A stretch of DNA of 64,000 nt from Comamonas testosteroni. Lineage in GTDB: Bacteria > Pseudomonadota > Gammaproteobacteria > Burkholderiales > Burkholderiaceae_C. A program made the translations under genes and the position numbers. Below the pieces are notes generated by a model. That model was not told the DNA's origin. It saw only the letters and a list, made by a program, of their open reading frames with translations, and made no database searches. Positions 10,019-17,120 of this stretch are shown piece after piece. How positions within the stretch are numbered: position 1 is the stretch's first letter; every line of letters begins with the position of its first letter. The stretch covers positions 1 to 64,000 of the forward strand of contig NZ_KZ984455.1 of the NCBI RefSeq assembly GCF_003569915.1. Direction: 5' to 3'.

Positions 10019-11542
10019 ATGGCATCCAGCCCATCGCAGCGTGACTACAGCGCTCCCTGTCCTGGTTGTGGCGCGCCGGTTCATTTCAGCAGCGCGCAGG
10101 CCAGCTTTGCCGTCTGCGAGTTTTGTCGCAGCACCGTGGTGCGCGACGGTGAGGTGCTCAAGCGCATCGGCTCCATGGCCGAGGTGTTCGAGGACTACAG
10201 CCCGCTGCGCATCGGTGCCACGGGCATGTTCAAGCGCAACGGCAAGGCCGAAGCCTTCACCATCGTGGGCCGCGCCCAGTACAAGAGCGGGGCGGGCAAC
10301 TGGTCGGAATGGCTTGCCACGCTGCACGACGGCGATCTGGCCTATCTGAGCGAGGACAACGGCAGCTTTGTCTTTGCCATGTCCTGGCAGCCTCCGGGCT
10401 GGGAGCACAAAGGCTTTTCCCCCAACGAATGGCGCATGGGGCGTGAGCTGAAGGCGGGCACGGAATCGTTTACCGTCACCAGCATTCAGGACGCCCAGCT
10501 AATGGCTGCGCAGGGCGAGCTGGCCCAACTGCCTGCGCTGGGCAAAAGCTTCAAGCTGGTAGAGCTGAGAAACGACAAGAACCAGATTCTGTCGGTGGAC
10601 TTCAGCGGCAAGCAGCCCGGCTATACGCTGGGTGTGCCGGTACAGCTCGACGGCCTGCAGATGCAGGGCCTGCGCGATGTGACCAAGAAGGAGCAGGGCC
10701 GCCACTTCAACTGCCCCGAGTGTGGCGCGGTGGTGCCCGTCAAGTTTGAGAGCACCAAGGCCATGAGCTGCCCGAGCTGCGGCAGTCTGGTCGATATGTC
10801 CAAGGGCATGGGCGGTGAACTCAGCTATGCCGAGCAGCGCAAGAAGGTCAAGCCCGCCATCCCGCTGGGCAGCGAAGGCATGCTGGACGGCCTGAAGTGG
10901 CAGGTTGTCGGCTTTCAGCGCCGCAGCGGTCGCGGTGTGGGCGAGGATGAGGACGACAGCTTTTTCTGGGATGAGTACCTGCTCTACAACAAGAAGGCAG
11001 GCTTTTCCTTCATCGTCGATTCGGAAGACGGCTGGAGCACGGCGCGGGTTGTCTCGGGGGCGCCCAAGCTCACCAAAAATGGCGCAACGGCCACCTATCT
11101 GCAGCGCAAATACCAGCGCGACTATGCCTATCTGGCCGTGACGGACTACGCCGAAGGCGAGTTCTACTGGCCGGTGTACAAAGGCCAAAAGAGCAGCAAT
11201 GTGGACTATGCCTATGGCGGCAAGCAGTCCACGCTGGCGCAGGAAACAGCCAACAACGAAACCACCTGGACGCATGGCCAGCGCGCATCGGCGCAGACCA
11301 TTGCCAGTGCTTTTGGCGTAGACAAGCTCAAGGATCGCTCACAGGTCAATCCTCTGTCGGGCAGCCGTTTTAGCTGGGGCACGATTTTGTTCTGGCTGTT
11401 TGTGCTGCTGTTCATACTGCCATTCATTCGCGCCTGCGTGTCCAGCCCCAACTGCGACCCGCGCACCGACCCCAATTGCAGCTACAGCCGCTCCAGCAGC
11501 GGCTCCTACGGCGGCTATACCTCTGGCGGCAGCCACAAGTAA
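10019..11542 (+). CDS. DUF4178 protein with two zinc ribbons and a C-terminal membrane anchor
   Basis: This 507-residue protein has an N-terminal zinc ribbon (C14-x2-C17 ... C33-x2-C36), then a first DUF4178-like beta domain (about 50-220), a second zinc ribbon (C232-x2-C235 ... C251-x2-C254), and a second copy of the beta domain (about 280-420, with WDEYLLYNKKAGFSFIVDSE). A single hydrophobic segment (FWLFVLLFILPFIRACV) is followed by a short Cys- and Ser/Gly/Tyr-rich tail. Function is unknown. It is followed 30 bp later by a DUF350 gene and then by a spermidine-synthase-like gene, a recurrent association as far as I recall. It is probably the cytosolic adaptor of a membrane complex. Confidence 0.85.
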   Translation: MASSPSQRDYSAPCPGCGAPVHFSSAQASFAVCEFCRSTVVRDGEVLKRIGSMAEVFEDYSPLRIGATGMFKRNGKAEAFTIVGRAQYKSGAGNWSEWLATLHDGDLAYLSEDNGSFVFAMSWQPPGWEHKGFSPNEWRMGRELKAGTESFTVTSIQDAQLMAAQGELAQLPALGKSFKLVELRNDKNQILSVDFSGKQPGYTLGVPVQLDGLQMQGLRDVTKKEQGRHFNCPECGAVVPVKFESTKAMSCPSCGSLVDMSKGMGGELSYAEQRKKVKPAIPLGSEGMLDGLKWQVVGFQRRSGRGVGEDEDDSFFWDEYLLYNKKAGFSFIVDSEDGWSTARVVSGAPKLTKNGATATYLQRKYQRDYAYLAVTDYAEGEFYWPVYKGQKSSNVDYAYGGKQSTLAQETANNETTWTHGQRASAQTIASAFGVDKLKDRSQVNPLSGSRFSWGTILFWLFVLLFILPFIRACVSSPNCDPRTDPNCSYSRSSSGSYGGYTSGGSHK

Positions 11543-11572
11543 GTCAGACCCTCTGATTCAAGGAGAACAAAC

Positions 11573-11791
11573 ATGATCGCTGAATGGTTTACCCCGATGA
11601 ACTTGCTGGGCACCGTCACCTATGCCGTAGTTGGCGTGGCGGTGTTCTGGGTCAGCTTCATCATCATCGACAAGATCACGCCCGTGGACCTGTGGGCGGA
11701 GATCATCGAAAAACACAACAAGGCGTTGGCCATGGTGGTGGCGGCGATGTGTCTGGGGATATCGATCATTGTTGCCGCGGCTATTCATTGA
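11573..11791 (+). CDS. DUF350 small membrane protein
   Basis: This 72-residue protein has two hydrophobic helices (about 10-31 and 48-70) separated by a charged loop IDKITPVDLWAEIIEKHNKA. The DKITP...W.EI...N.A pattern is the DUF350 signature. Many members contain two such units in about 130 residues, while this one is a single unit. It has a strong AAGGAGA ribosome-binding site and sits between the DUF4178 gene and the spermidine-synthase-like gene. It is probably a membrane subunit of the same system. Confidence 0.85.
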   Translation: MIAEWFTPMNLLGTVTYAVVGVAVFWVSFIIIDKITPVDLWAEIIEKHNKALAMVVAAMCLGISIIVAAAIH

Positions 11792-11915
11792 GGCTCCCCC
11801 TGAGCGGCTTTGCCGCTTCCCCCTCTCTCGCTGCGCTGCGCTTGCGGGAGGGGGACGACAGCCTCGCTGCGCGGCGGCGCTTGCTCGCTGTCTCTTTGTT
11901 GGGGCGCGCCAGTTT
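11792..11915 (+). repeat. GC-rich dispersed repeat, copy 1 (inside the DUF4178 cluster)
   Basis: The stretch starts with GGCTCCCCCTGAGCGGC, continues with TTGCCGCTTCCCCCT and GGGAGGGGGACG, and ends near TTGTTGGGGCGCGCC. The same blocks in the same order recur on the minus strand at 17025-17118. It separates the DUF350 gene from the next gene by 161 bp and can form GC-rich hairpins, so it may lower read-through within the cluster. Confidence 0.75.
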
Positions 11916-11952
11916 TGGCGAGTTGTGCCTGTTTTACGGTTAAAGGAATTGG

Positions 11953-13503
11953 ATGACTTCGATGGTGGCTGAGCCTGATAGCGCTCGCCAGGGGCCGCGG
12001 CCTGTTGATGTGGCTTTGCTGGCCAGCGTGTTTGTCATTGCGGCCTGTGGTCTGCTGTATGAGCTGGCTGCGGGGGCGCTGGCGTCCTATCTGCTGGGCG
12101 ATTCGGTTCTGCAGTTTTCCACCATCATCGGCACCTATCTGTTTGCCATGGGCATAGGCTCATGGCTGTCGCGTTATTTTGAGGAGCAGCTGCCTGCGCA
12201 TTTTCTGCGCGTGGAGCTGATGGTGGCGCTGATTGGCGGCGCCTTGCCTGCGGTGCTGTTTCTGGCCAATGCCTATGCGCCGGGGGCGTTTCGTTTTCTG
12301 CTCTACGGCATGGTGCTGCTGGTTGGTACGCTGGTGGGGCTGGAGATTCCGCTGGTCATGCGTATCCTGAAGCGCAGCGCCTCGCTCAAGGATCTGGTCT
12401 CCAAGGTTCTGACTTTTGACTATCTGGGCGCGCTGGCCGTGTCGCTGGCTTTCCCTATCGTGCTGGTGCCCAAGCTGGGGCTGGTGCGCACGGGCCTGCT
12501 GTTTGGCTTTATGAATGCGGCCATTGCCGTGTGGGCGCTGGTGCTGTTCAAACGTGAGCTGCGCAATCTGCGCGCCCATGCCTGGGCCTGCGCGGTGGTG
12601 ATGACTACGCTGGCTCTGGGCGTCTTTGGCGCAGACCATCTGACCCGGCTGGCAGACGACCATTTCTATCAGGACCGCATTGTGCTGAGCAGCAGCTCGC
12701 CTTATCAGCGCATCGTGGTCACCCAGGGGCGTCAGGGCGCGCGCCTGTATCTGAATGGCAATCTGCAGTTTGCCCAGAGTGATGAGTATCGCTATCACGA
12801 AGCGCTGGTTCACCCCGTCATGGCTGCGCATGGTGCTCCGAAAAAAGTAGCTGTTCTGGGTGGCGGTGATGGTATGGCAGTGCGCGAAGTGCTCAAGTAC
12901 CCCAGCGTCGAATCCGTCACGCTGGTGGAGCTGGACCCGGCCATGACCGATCTGTTCCGAACCAACGCCATGATGACGGCGCTGAACCATAACGCGCTCA
13001 ACGACCCACGTGTGAAGATCGTCAATACCGACGCTTTTCACTGGCTGCAGGAGGCGGCGGACACTTTTGATGTCATTGTGGTGGACTTTCCCGACCCCAC
13101 CAACTTTGCCATTGGCAAGCTGTTCACCAACAGTTTTTATTCGCTGATGGACAAGCGCCTGGCTGCCAGCGGCTATGCCGTGGTGCAGACCACATCACCG
13201 TTGATTGCGCGGCAAAGTTTCTGGACGGTGGCAACCACCATTGAATCCGTGGGCCTGACGGCCAAGCCCTATCACGTGCATGTGCCCAGCTTTGGCGAGT
13301 GGGGCTTTGTCATGGCCAGCCACCGGCCCTGGCACGAGCCGACCAGCCTGCCTGAGGGCATGCGCTTTCTCACGCTGCCCACGCTGCGGCTGATGTTTGA
13401 CTTTCCGCTGGATATGGCGCGCGTGCCCACCGAGGTGAATCGCCTGTCCAATCAGGTGCTGGTCAACACTTACGAGCGCGAATGGGGCAAGGTGGAGCAT
13501 TGA
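11953..13503 (+). CDS. Membrane-embedded spermidine-synthase-like aminopropyltransferase
   Basis: This 516-residue protein has an N-terminal half with about seven membrane helices (residues 20-230). The C-terminal half is a spermidine-synthase fold: SSPYQRIVV, YLNGNLQFAQSDEYRYHE, the nucleotide motif LGGGDG (302-307), VTLVELDP and the catalytic-loop Asp in VVDFPDP. Soluble SpeE transfers aminopropyl groups from decarboxylated AdoMet to putrescine. Fusion to a membrane domain suggests a membrane-bound or lipid-linked acceptor, which is inference. It has a strong AAAGGAA ribosome-binding site. The stop overlaps the next start as TGATG, indicating translational coupling to the flavoprotein. Confidence 0.9.
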   Translation: MTSMVAEPDSARQGPRPVDVALLASVFVIAACGLLYELAAGALASYLLGDSVLQFSTIIGTYLFAMGIGSWLSRYFEEQLPAHFLRVELMVALIGGALPAVLFLANAYAPGAFRFLLYGMVLLVGTLVGLEIPLVMRILKRSASLKDLVSKVLTFDYLGALAVSLAFPIVLVPKLGLVRTGLLFGFMNAAIAVWALVLFKRELRNLRAHAWACAVVMTTLALGVFGADHLTRLADDHFYQDRIVLSSSSPYQRIVVTQGRQGARLYLNGNLQFAQSDEYRYHEALVHPVMAAHGAPKKVAVLGGGDGMAVREVLKYPSVESVTLVELDPAMTDLFRTNAMMTALNHNALNDPRVKIVNTDAFHWLQEAADTFDVIVVDFPDPTNFAIGKLFTNSFYSLMDKRLAASGYAVVQTTSPLIARQSFWTVATTIESVGLTAKPYHVHVPSFGEWGFVMASHRPWHEPTSLPEGMRFLTLPTLRLMFDFPLDMARVPTEVNRLSNQVLVNTYEREWGKVEH

Positions 13504-15230
13504 TGAGCGGCGAGTTGCATCGCCGTGACTGGCTCAAGCTGGCAGCCGCGGGCGCTGCTGCACTTTCTGGCTGCAAACCAGCGGCCCCTTTGCTGGATGA
13601 ACTGCCCGGCGGCTTTACCGGCGTGGCGCTGGAGCGTGGCCATAGCTTGCGCCCGTTCTGGCAGCGTCTGGCGCAAGGGCTGGACTTGCCCGCGCCTGCC
13701 GTGGTGCACCACGCGCCTGTAGTGATTGCCGGTGGCGGCATGGCAGGCATGGCCGCCACGCGCGCGCTGGAGTCTGCTGGCGTGCAGGGCGCGGCGTTGC
13801 TCGATACGCAGGCTGCCATGGGCGGCAACAGCCAGGGAGGTCAGATCAAAGGCATTGCCTGCCCTCTGGGCGCGCACTATCTGCCCGTGCCCGGCGATGA
13901 CGCCAGCGAGGTACAGGACTGGCTGCAGGAGCTGGGTCTGCGCCAGCAGATTGCGGGGCGCTGGGTCTACGACGAGCGCTATCTATGCCACAGCCCGCAG
14001 GAGCGGCTGTACCTGCACGGCCACTGGCAGGAAGGCCTGCTACCCGTGCAAAGCGTGGGCGAGCGCACGCTGGCCCAATATGTGCGCTTTGAGCAGTGCA
14101 TGAATGCAGCCATGGCCGAATCCGCCTTTGCCATGCCCTCGATCCGCGTCTGGCAGCGCGAGGGACGCTTGCCTGCATCTCATGCGCGGCTGGATGCGCA
14201 GCGCTTTGACCAGTGGCTGGCCCAGCAGGGGCTGGATGATGAATATCTGCTCTGGTACCTGAATTACTGCTGCCGCGACGACTTTGGTGCGGGCATACAG
14301 CGCGTCTCGGCCTGGGCCGGTATTCATTACTTTGCCAGCCGCCATGGCTTTCATGCACCACGCTCTGCCTCAGAGCATGCTCATGAAGAAGAGGGCGAGC
14401 AGGTGCTGACCTGGCCGCAGGGCAATGGCTGGCTGTCGCAGCAACTGGTGGCGCGGCTCAAGGCCACGCAGCTCATCACGGACTGCAGCGTGCTCTCGAT
14501 CACCGAGGGACGGGACGGCGTGCAGATCGATACCTGGCACCATGGCCGCCAGCAGCATGAGCGCTGGCTGGCTCAGAGCTGCGTGGTGGCGCTGCCCACA
14601 TTCATTGCGGCGCGTGTGTTGCGTAACCCGCCGGATTTTCTGCGCAGCGTGGCTGAACGTCTGGACTGGGCACCGTGGCTGGTGGCCAATATTCATATCG
14701 ACCAGCAACTGGCCGACTACCCGGGGGCGGAGCCAGCCTGGGACAATGTGCTGTACCAGGACGGCAATGCGGGCGGGCTGGGCTATGTGGACGCAGGCGG
14801 GCAGCGGCTGGACCGCATTACGCGCCAGCCTACGGTGCTGAGCTATTACCAGGCGCTGGGCGACTGGGAAGATGGCCGCAAGCAGTTGCTGCAGCAGCCG
14901 TTTGCCTTCTGGCGCGAGCGCATTGTCAAAACGTTGAGCGAGCCACATGCCGACCTGCTGCAGCGCGCCACGCGCATGGAGATCACGCGCTACGGTCACG
15001 CCATGCCGGTGCCCAGAGTGGGTGATCAGCAGATTTTGAGTGAAATCGCCTTGAAGTCCAGAAAAGATATAGGCAAGCAGCTATCAAATGGAGAGCGGGT
15101 GGAGCTGCTGCCCACACCAATAGCAGGCCGTCTGGCTTTTGCGCATTCGGACTGGGCCGGATATTCGGTGCTGGAAGAAGCTTTTACCCGTGGCCACCAT
15201 GCAGGCCTGTGGGCCGCGCATCAGCTTTAG
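13503..15230 (+). CDS. Exported FAD-dependent oxidoreductase (amine-oxidase-like) with Tat-type lipoprotein signal
   Basis: This 575-residue protein begins MSGELHRRDWLKLAAAGAAA, followed by LSGC. The twin arginines (7-8) and a lipobox ending at Cys24 suggest Tat export and lipid anchoring. The FAD-binding Rossmann motif VVIAGGGMAGMAATRALE lies near residue 80, and a C-terminal SDWAGYSVLEEAF block is typical of amine-oxidase/phytoene-desaturase-like flavoproteins. The start overlaps the stop of the aminopropyltransferase. About 20 residues near 15034-15091 are encoded by a dispersed repeat inserted in frame. The substrate is unknown. An oxidised polyamine-like product of the upstream enzyme is a reasonable guess. 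Confidence 0.85.
   Translation: MSGELHRRDWLKLAAAGAAALSGCKPAAPLLDELPGGFTGVALERGHSLRPFWQRLAQGLDLPAPAVVHHAPVVIAGGGMAGMAATRALESAGVQGAALLDTQAAMGGNSQGGQIKGIACPLGAHYLPVPGDDASEVQDWLQELGLRQQIAGRWVYDERYLCHSPQERLYLHGHWQEGLLPVQSVGERTLAQYVRFEQCMNAAMAESAFAMPSIRVWQREGRLPASHARLDAQRFDQWLAQQGLDDEYLLWYLNYCCRDDFGAGIQRVSAWAGIHYFASRHGFHAPRSASEHAHEEEGEQVLTWPQGNGWLSQQLVARLKATQLITDCSVLSITEGRDGVQIDTWHHGRQQHERWLAQSCVVALPTFIAARVLRNPPDFLRSVAERLDWAPWLVANIHIDQQLADYPGAEPAWDNVLYQDGNAGGLGYVDAGGQRLDRITRQPTVLSYYQALGDWEDGRKQLLQQPFAFWRERIVKTLSEPHADLLQRATRMEITRYGHAMPVPRVGDQQILSEIALKSRKDIGKQLSNGERVELLPTPIAGRLAFAHSDWAGYSVLEEAFTRGHHAGLWAAHQL
15034..15091 (-). repeat. Dispersed 60-bp AT-rich element inside a coding sequence, copy 3
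   Basis: Read on the minus strand it gives ATTTGATAGCTG, TTGCCTATAT, TTTCTGGACTT and AAGGCGATTTCACT in the family order. It is translated in the flavoprotein as EIALKSRKDIGKQLSNGE, between two conserved blocks where relatives, as I recall, have a short loop. Confidence 0.75.
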
Positions 15231-16367: not shown

Positions 16368-17120
16368 TCAGTGCTTTTCCAGCACCATCTGGTTGCCTTT
16401 GCGCGTCATCTGAAACTGGGCCAGAAAATTATTGCCCAGCAGCACATAAGGCATGGACTCCGGGCCGACGACGGCTTCGAGGCCGTAGACTTCAATATCG
16501 CCAAGGCGCACGCTGTCGAGCTTGACGCGCCAGCCCTGTGCGGTGCCATTGGCCGTGCGCATCATCACGGGTGTGCCTTGCTGGTAGGGCAGACCCAGGC
16601 GCTCGGCATCGGCGCGGCCCATGGAGATGGTGCTGGCACCGGTATCGACCATGTACTGCATGGTCTTGCCATTGATAAAGCCCCGGTCGATGAAGTGCCC
16701 GCGTGAATCTGCAATCAGTACCAGCGTGTTGGAGCGCGAACCGCCCCCCGCCCCGCCACGGCTGCCCACGCTCACTGGCGCCTCGCCCAGTCGCAGGCTC
16801 TGGCGCTCGCCCTTGATCTCCACCACAGCAGATTCGCCGGCAAGCTGCAGCAAACGCACCCCCTGATGTGTTTCATTGACGGCGAGCGCCTTCGGCGGCC
16901 CGCCGTTGACCACCAGCAAGGCCTTGCTTCCCAACACCCCCGTCAGCGCGACAGATTGAGCCCAGGCCGAGGCAGTTGCCATTGTCAGCAAGAGCACAAA
17001 ACCGGCGCGGCCCAAGCGAGAGATGCCAAGCAAGGGCCTAGGCTGGCCGCGCCGCCCCGCTGCGAGGGCAGCGTCCCCCTTCAAGGGGGAAGCGGCAACG
17101 CCGCTCAGGGGGTGATCCAT
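16368..17120 (-). CDS. Retropepsin-like aspartic protease, exported (TIGR02281-like)
   Basis: The catalytic motif is in MQYMVDTGASTISMGRADAE, followed by flap-like VMMRTANGTAQG and a C-terminal block MPYVLLGNNFLAQFQMTRKG. These fit the bacterial clan-AA retropepsins, which act as dimers in the periplasm. A hydrophobic signal segment (FVLLLTMATASAWAQ) comes about 40 residues after the ATG at 17120. The residues before it are encoded by a GC-rich dispersed repeat. The true start may therefore be a TTG near 17030, which would give a normal signal peptide. Confidence 0.85.
   Translation of the reverse strand: MDHPLSGVAASPLKGDAALAAGRRGQPRPLLGISRLGRAGFVLLLTMATASAWAQSVALTGVLGSKALLVVNGGPPKALAVNETHQGVRLLQLAGESAVVEIKGERQSLRLGEAPVSVGSRGGAGGGSRSNTLVLIADSRGHFIDRGFINGKTMQYMVDTGASTISMGRADAERLGLPYQQGTPVMMRTANGTAQGWRVKLDSVRLGDIEVYGLEAVVGPESMPYVLLGNNFLAQFQMTRKGNQMVLEKH
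17025..17118 (-). repeat. GC-rich dispersed repeat, copy 2 (overlaps the retropepsin 5' end)
   Basis: On the minus strand it reads CCCCCTGAGCGGCGTTGCC, GCTTCCCCCTTGAAGGGGG, ACGCTGCCCTCGCAGCGG and GGCGCGGCCAGCC. It shares the order and sequence of blocks with copy 1. It contains the hairpin CCCCCTTGAAGGGGG. Confidence 0.78.

Follow-up and report, generated by a model that had tools for sequence, protein, structure and literature searches.

The 64-kb stretch of Comamonas testosteroni DNA analysed here (contig NZ_KZ984455.1, positions 1 to 64,000; hereafter the window) carries, at 10019-15230, four co-directional genes for a DUF4178 protein, a DUF350 protein, a spermidine synthase-like domain fused to a membrane domain (TM-SpeE) and a flavoprotein (Table 1). 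This layout had been proposed in an initial annotation of the sequence, and both the coordinates and Pfam scores above cut-off bear it out. The DUF4178 protein matches PF13785 at 83.2 bits (cut-off 25) through two copies of the domain (10250-10645 and 10865-11287), and the membrane anchor claimed for it is present as a single hydrophobic segment (residues 456-474). Its supposed zinc ribbon stands in part: the CxxC pairs CPGC/CEFC and CPEC/CPSC can be read directly from the sequence, but the Pfam Zn_ribbon_3 score of 19.4 bits falls under the cut-off of 27. The DUF350 protein (PF03994, 53 bits, cut-off 26) has the expected two predicted membrane helices. The stop codon of TM-SpeE (TGA, 13501-13503) overlaps the start codon of the flavoprotein (ATG, 13503-13505) to give the TGATG described earlier; an alternative in-frame ATG lies upstream at 13482, and 13503 is the likely start. 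Among 73 TM-SpeE/flavoprotein pairs from related loci, a possible flavoprotein start lies within 30 bp of the TM-SpeE stop in 51 and the two genes overlap in 36. Profile searches of the window returned no further SpeE or SpeD match, in line with the earlier statement that soluble polyamine genes are lacking nearby.

Table 1. Coordinates of the four genes and of features within them (positions in the window).
Feature	Position	Strand	Basis
DUF4178 protein, 507 aa, two DUF4178 domains, zinc-ribbon-like CxxC pairs, C-terminal membrane anchor	10019..11542	+	Pfam, sequence
DUF350 protein, 72 aa, two predicted membrane helices	11573..11791	+	Pfam
TM-SpeE, 516 aa, seven-helix membrane domain fused to aminopropyltransferase domain	11953..13503	+	Pfam, NCBIfam, AlphaFold2, alignment
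TM-SpeE seven-helix part, residues 1-225	11953..12627	+	AlphaFold2 helices, charge bias
TM-SpeE SpeE (aminopropyltransferase) domain, from about residue 241	12673..13503	+	structure/sequence comparison
TGATG overlap, TM-SpeE stop/flavoprotein start	13501..13505	+	sequence
Flavoprotein, amine oxidase superfamily, 575 aa, Tat-lipoprotein signal	13503..15230	+	Pfam, fold, N-terminal patterns

The four genes form a real module that co-occurs beyond chance and recurs in other genera and families, so that the conserved neighbourhood is not confined to close relatives. In a sample of 120 genomes of the order, with TM-SpeE matched over both halves at 375 bits or more and the flavoprotein at E <= 1e-20, full-length TM-SpeE, the flavoprotein and DUF4178 were each found in 18 genomes, and these were the identical 18, spread over nine family labels. 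The flavoprotein match lies no more than 200 bp from TM-SpeE in 15 of the 18, and the DUF4178 match no more than 5 kb away in 17 (19 kb in the remaining genome, G111). A sample of 299 genomes across the phylum was searched for both genes (TM-SpeE at E <= 1e-60), with up to five candidates per genome scored in one search and up to four in the other, so that misses are possible. TM-SpeE was detected in 31 of these genomes, and the 10 genomes with the flavoprotein all belong to the 31. The two genes adjoin in nine of these ten and lie about 5 kb apart in the tenth (G336). A flavoprotein without TM-SpeE was found in neither sample.

Related loci in named genomes extend this picture. The best 80 of 584 relatives are nearly all from Burkholderiales, and some of their loci are short or cut; frequencies taken from them hold for close relatives. 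They contain the short form of DUF350 in 76, DUF4178 in 75, the flavoprotein in 74, a band-7 gene in 61 and SpeD in 23. The commonest order, exact in 36, is band-7, DUF4178, DUF350, TM-SpeE, flavoprotein; in two loci (L121 and L130) the flavoprotein lies 5' of TM-SpeE. The closest named locus belongs to Comamonas suwonensis (TM-SpeE 92% identical), and it (L096), Delftia (L073-L075) and the window have no band-7 gene nearby. Judging by eye, several of the more distant TM-SpeE carriers without the flavoprotein encode SpeD, PspA, DUF350, a protein resembling CesT/Tir and a shorter one resembling DUF4178, together with a protein that places a soluble domain between two hydrophobic helices; PspA and CesT/Tir in these loci (L195-L203) were assigned by eye against the descriptions of Ravi et al.

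The gene set has in part been described before, and the prior art is substantial. In the accessible part of their paper, Ravi et al. (2024; PMC11237479) describe an operon in which 7TM-SpeE, DUF350 and DUF4178 accompany PspA and CesT/Tir, as well as a variant that has a band-7/SHOCT protein, S-adenosylmethionine (AdoMet) decarboxylase and a polyamine oxidase; they call the 7TM part transporter-like and propose that membrane structure responds to polyamine levels or to the aminopropylation of other substrates. These operons, and the neighbourhood survey above, agree with the remark in the initial annotation that DUF350 and DUF4178 recur with SpeE-like genes. The window likewise has 7TM-SpeE, DUF350 and DUF4178 in one operon, but no PspA, CesT/Tir, band-7 or SpeD gene beside the four genes. 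Where the band-7 variant has a polyamine oxidase, the window has a PF01593 flavoprotein that may or may not be the protein meant in that paper (Ravi et al., 2024). The word "periplasm" does not occur in the main text as available, nor was a topology claim seen there. Searches of the accessible literature on DUF4178, or on DUF350 together with DUF4178, returned nothing besides this paper, and a search on Comamonas polyamine content returned nothing. A membrane-fused spermidine synthase (SpdSyn) with AdoMet decarboxylase and a DUF350 neighbour was reportedly also noted by Li and co-workers in 2019, who are said to have proposed a role outside polyamine synthesis. The speD2-speE2-PA4775 cluster of Pseudomonas aeruginosa resembles the module in pairing AdoMet decarboxylase with a second SpeE and in its link to cell-surface polyamines. 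However, in the accessible sources SpeE2 is a 349-aa thermospermine synthase, as against 516 aa and seven helices in TM-SpeE, and on the strength of SpeE2 the cluster was rejected as the same system; PA4775 is there said to have no homologue. As far as we have seen, the strict co-inheritance, the active-site comparison and the topology prediction are new here, as are the export signal of the flavoprotein and the SpeD supply from a fusion elsewhere in the genome.

The initial annotation described TM-SpeE as a spermidine synthase domain fused to about seven membrane helices, which agrees with the matches to PF01564 (144.9 bits, cut-off 22.9) and to NCBIfam NF002956 (691.6 bits, cut-off 472, residues 7-513) and with seven helices in the AlphaFold2 model. 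NF002956 (PRK03612, the membrane-fused polyamine aminopropyltransferase) is matched over its full length, and its layout of an N-terminal membrane domain followed by an aminopropyltransferase domain with donor-side and catalytic residues is present in TM-SpeE; soluble SpeE proteins, by contrast, lack the membrane domain and differ at conserved positions. In an alignment of 75 TM-SpeE sequences, D306 of the GGGDG motif, D328, D378, D381 and Y281, which we take to be donor-side and catalytic residues, are kept in all 75. On its donor side the active site is thus canonical, and by its sequence the domain has the pocket expected for decarboxylated AdoMet (dcAdoMet). Positions 272, 280, 412 and 447 set all 75 apart from 13 soluble SpeE proteins of the order, namely those with loci given among a larger number of soluble matches listed.

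The orientation of TM-SpeE in the membrane can be predicted. The AlphaFold2 model (61 sequences; mean predicted local distance difference test score, pLDDT, 87.9; predicted template-modelling score, pTM, 0.71) places helices at residues 17-48, 51-75, 80-108, 110-140, 145-175, 177-198 and 206-225 before the SpeE domain, all seven of membrane-spanning length. The seventh is hydrophobic across homologues (mean peak 1.88 to 2.20, lowest 1.29). In each of 95 homologues, which include six below 450 bits that the 75-sequence alignment omits, loops 2-3, 4-5 and 6-7 hold more lysine plus arginine than loops 1-2, 3-4 and 5-6, the means being 10.0 versus 2.1 (n=75), 9.6 versus 1.5 (n=14) and 8.3 versus 2.5 (n=6). 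By the positive-inside rule the first set of loops, and with it the N-terminus, is predicted to lie inside; since seven helices follow, the SpeE domain would be placed on the periplasmic side.

The flavoprotein falls in the flavin amine oxidase superfamily both by score (PF01593, 40.8 bits, cut-off 19.8) and by fold. Its N-terminus, RRDWLKLAAAGAAALSGC, combines a twin arginine, a hydrophobic stretch and a lipobox cysteine, so that the earlier description of a lipoprotein exported by twin-arginine translocation (Tat) agrees with prediction. The arginine pair is invariant in 16 of 16 aligned flavoproteins, one of which (L068) has no cysteine. Export patterns were examined in 73 related flavoproteins, three of which were set aside for having no flavin adenine dinucleotide (FAD) motif by the pattern used; among the other 70, the Tat pattern is found in 62, the lipobox pattern in 62 and both in 55. 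Fourteen of the 15 that fail at least one pattern have, by eye, the arginine pair and a later cysteine; the other (L101) has not, and its start may be misplaced. The best profile matches are to monoamine oxidase (8.9e-13) and putrescine oxidase (5.4e-12), with protoporphyrinogen oxidase near (2e-11), and the model resembles in fold putrescine oxidase and the spermidine dehydrogenase SpdH, which are among its top Foldseek matches. As the fold matches are tied, the substrate is not assignable from fold. In two related loci (L088 and L109) two flavoprotein-profile matches each lie 3' of TM-SpeE, as a duplicated or split gene.

A source of the aminopropyl donor exists in the genome of the window. 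Its only AdoMet decarboxylase match is a 434-aa frame fused with SpeE on contig C6 (L215:5284-6570; 428 aa when counted from its first start codon). Frames of fused length (410-652 aa) that match both AdoMet decarboxylase and SpeE are also seen in other genomes of the order sample. AdoMet decarboxylase is present in 18 of 18 module genomes against 24 of the 102 others (Fisher p 3e-10, kinship ignored), and the genomes with any SpeE-type match, 42 in all, coincide exactly with those that have the decarboxylase. In 15 of the 18 module genomes (all but G000, G093 and G105), TM-SpeE is the only PF01564 match to exceed 66 bits; lower-scoring matches, between about 23 and 65 bits, are present and could include unusual aminopropyltransferases.

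These data permit a model that starts from what was computed here, namely gene composition, co-inheritance, a dcAdoMet-type pocket, the differences from soluble SpeE, an export signal and seven helices with a positive-inside bias. In this model, SpeD, as part of the SpeD-SpeE fusion, would make dcAdoMet, and TM-SpeE would use it to aminopropylate an amine on the periplasmic surface of the inner membrane; its transporter-like membrane part may carry the donor or the acceptor through the membrane. The flavoenzyme, translationally coupled to TM-SpeE and exported as a lipoprotein, may then oxidise or trim the aminopropylated amine, or may instead make the acceptor. DUF4178 and DUF350, with band-7 in most close relatives, could provide a membrane-side scaffold tied to envelope stress. 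The proposal of the initial annotation that an aminopropyl-like transfer is followed by external oxidation is partly supported; the acceptor and the sequence of reactions, like periplasmic catalysis, donor transport and the scaffold role, are inferred. The best-ranked single reading, with a probability of roughly 0.45, is that an aminopropyl group is transferred to an amine on the envelope side and that this step is coupled to amine oxidation by the exported enzyme. A narrower version, in which dcAdoMet crosses the inner membrane via the seven-helix domain to aminopropylate an envelope component in the periplasm, which the coupled flavoenzyme then oxidises, seems doubtful.

Several points weigh against envelope-facing transfer. 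We know of no report of dcAdoMet outside the cytoplasm. The predicted topology comes from charge bias and a model, with hand-chosen loop boundaries and without a control family of known topology, and the partner proteins DUF4178 and band-7 appear to be cytosolic or peripheral to the membrane. In three of the 18 order-sample genomes no flavoprotein adjoins TM-SpeE (it lies about 18 kb away in G111 and on a separate contig in G032 and G077), and in the phylum sample 21 of the 31 TM-SpeE carriers had no match to the flavoprotein, so that not every TM-SpeE needs the flavoprotein. In addition, the alignment shows Q272 and F447 of TM-SpeE in the Thermus triamine/agmatine enzyme, and Q272 also in thermospermine synthase, a pattern compatible with an acceptor that is an ordinary polyamine of larger size. 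A second reading, ranked next and itself unlikely, would keep the SpeE domain in the cytosol, where it aminopropylates a small amine; the fused membrane part would export the cationic product, which the flavoprotein would process at the envelope. Transport of dcAdoMet would then be unnecessary, as SpeD is expected in the cytosol, and a transporter-like membrane part fits both the accessible description by Ravi et al. and a match to NF037959 (fused MFS/spermidine synthase) of 43.6 bits, barely above the cut-off of 40. However, the positive-inside bias in all 95 homologues, with seven helices, would put the C-terminal domain outside.

Ordinary polyamine metabolism is less probable still. On this reading TM-SpeE would be an aminopropyltransferase of the spermidine, thermospermine or agmatine type that is bound to the membrane, and the flavoprotein would act on polyamines in the periplasm, as an oxidase or dehydrogenase serving uptake or catabolism. 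The NCBIfam name, the Foldseek matches of the flavoprotein and the residues shared with the Thermus enzyme, which with thermospermine synthase is the closest structure to the SpeE domain, all speak for it. Yet the genome of the window already has a SpeD-SpeE fusion, and TM-SpeE accompanies DUF4178 and band-7/PspA-type genes rather than putrescine genes (the latter were not searched for). In 2019, Li and co-workers reportedly saw no replacement of SpdSyn by membrane fusions of this kind. There is very little likelihood that the SpeE-like domain is instead an AdoMet-dependent methyltransferase of envelope proteins. The model for this reading is NHMT of the fungus Aspergillus nidulans, a methyltransferase that has the same layout of seven transmembrane helices and a SpdSyn-like domain and modifies secreted proteins; in the accessible part of that report, NHMT is without the acidic GxG(D/E)G residue that is given there as needed for dcAdoMet (PMC10349129). 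In TM-SpeE this residue (D306) is Asp in 75 of 75, which disfavours an NHMT-like identity, and all 18 module genomes also have AdoMet decarboxylase.

The module is real, widespread and partly described. If the narrower version above is correct, extracytoplasmic aminopropyl chemistry would give AdoMet decarboxylase a job outside free-polyamine synthesis in bacteria that have SpeD and no strong soluble SpeE, which bears on how the decarboxylase is used where an ordinary spermidine synthase is absent. The analysis supplies a likely user of its product with a predicted topology, and an exported partner enzyme tied to it by strict co-inheritance in the order sample and by an overlapping start. Work on the module might reveal a new envelope modification.

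Some minor observations concern related genes elsewhere. On contig C5 of the window's genome, a Band_7_1 protein scores 326.8 bits to the operon band-7 profile, orthology not being established, and adjoins a zinc-ribbon protein with a weak DUF4178-profile score of 14.4 bits (L214:4682-7196); they may act as a partner of the operon in trans or may form a pair of their own. In genome G061, a stand-alone DUF4178 domain (235-aa frame, C24:299864-300687) lies 114 bp from SpeD, separate from the TM-SpeE operon on C25. One contig titled as an Akkermansia muciniphila metagenome-assembled genome (L116) carries a TM-SpeE 68% identical to that of Burkholderiales and flanked by the same neighbours, and that assignment is probably a binning error. 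In the window, the genes flanking the four-gene set match tRNA_edit, PlsY, HD_5 and aspartyl protease (Pfam). No inverted repeat was found in the gap 5' of TM-SpeE (11780-11960). The 160-bp gap between DUF350 and TM-SpeE has a GC-rich stretch at 11804 (+), the 20-base core of which has one further copy in the window, with up to three mismatches allowed, at 17085 (-). Similar stretches occur intergenically on plasmids of Comamonas odontotermitis and Diaphorobacter, and this one may be a dispersed repeat of the family.

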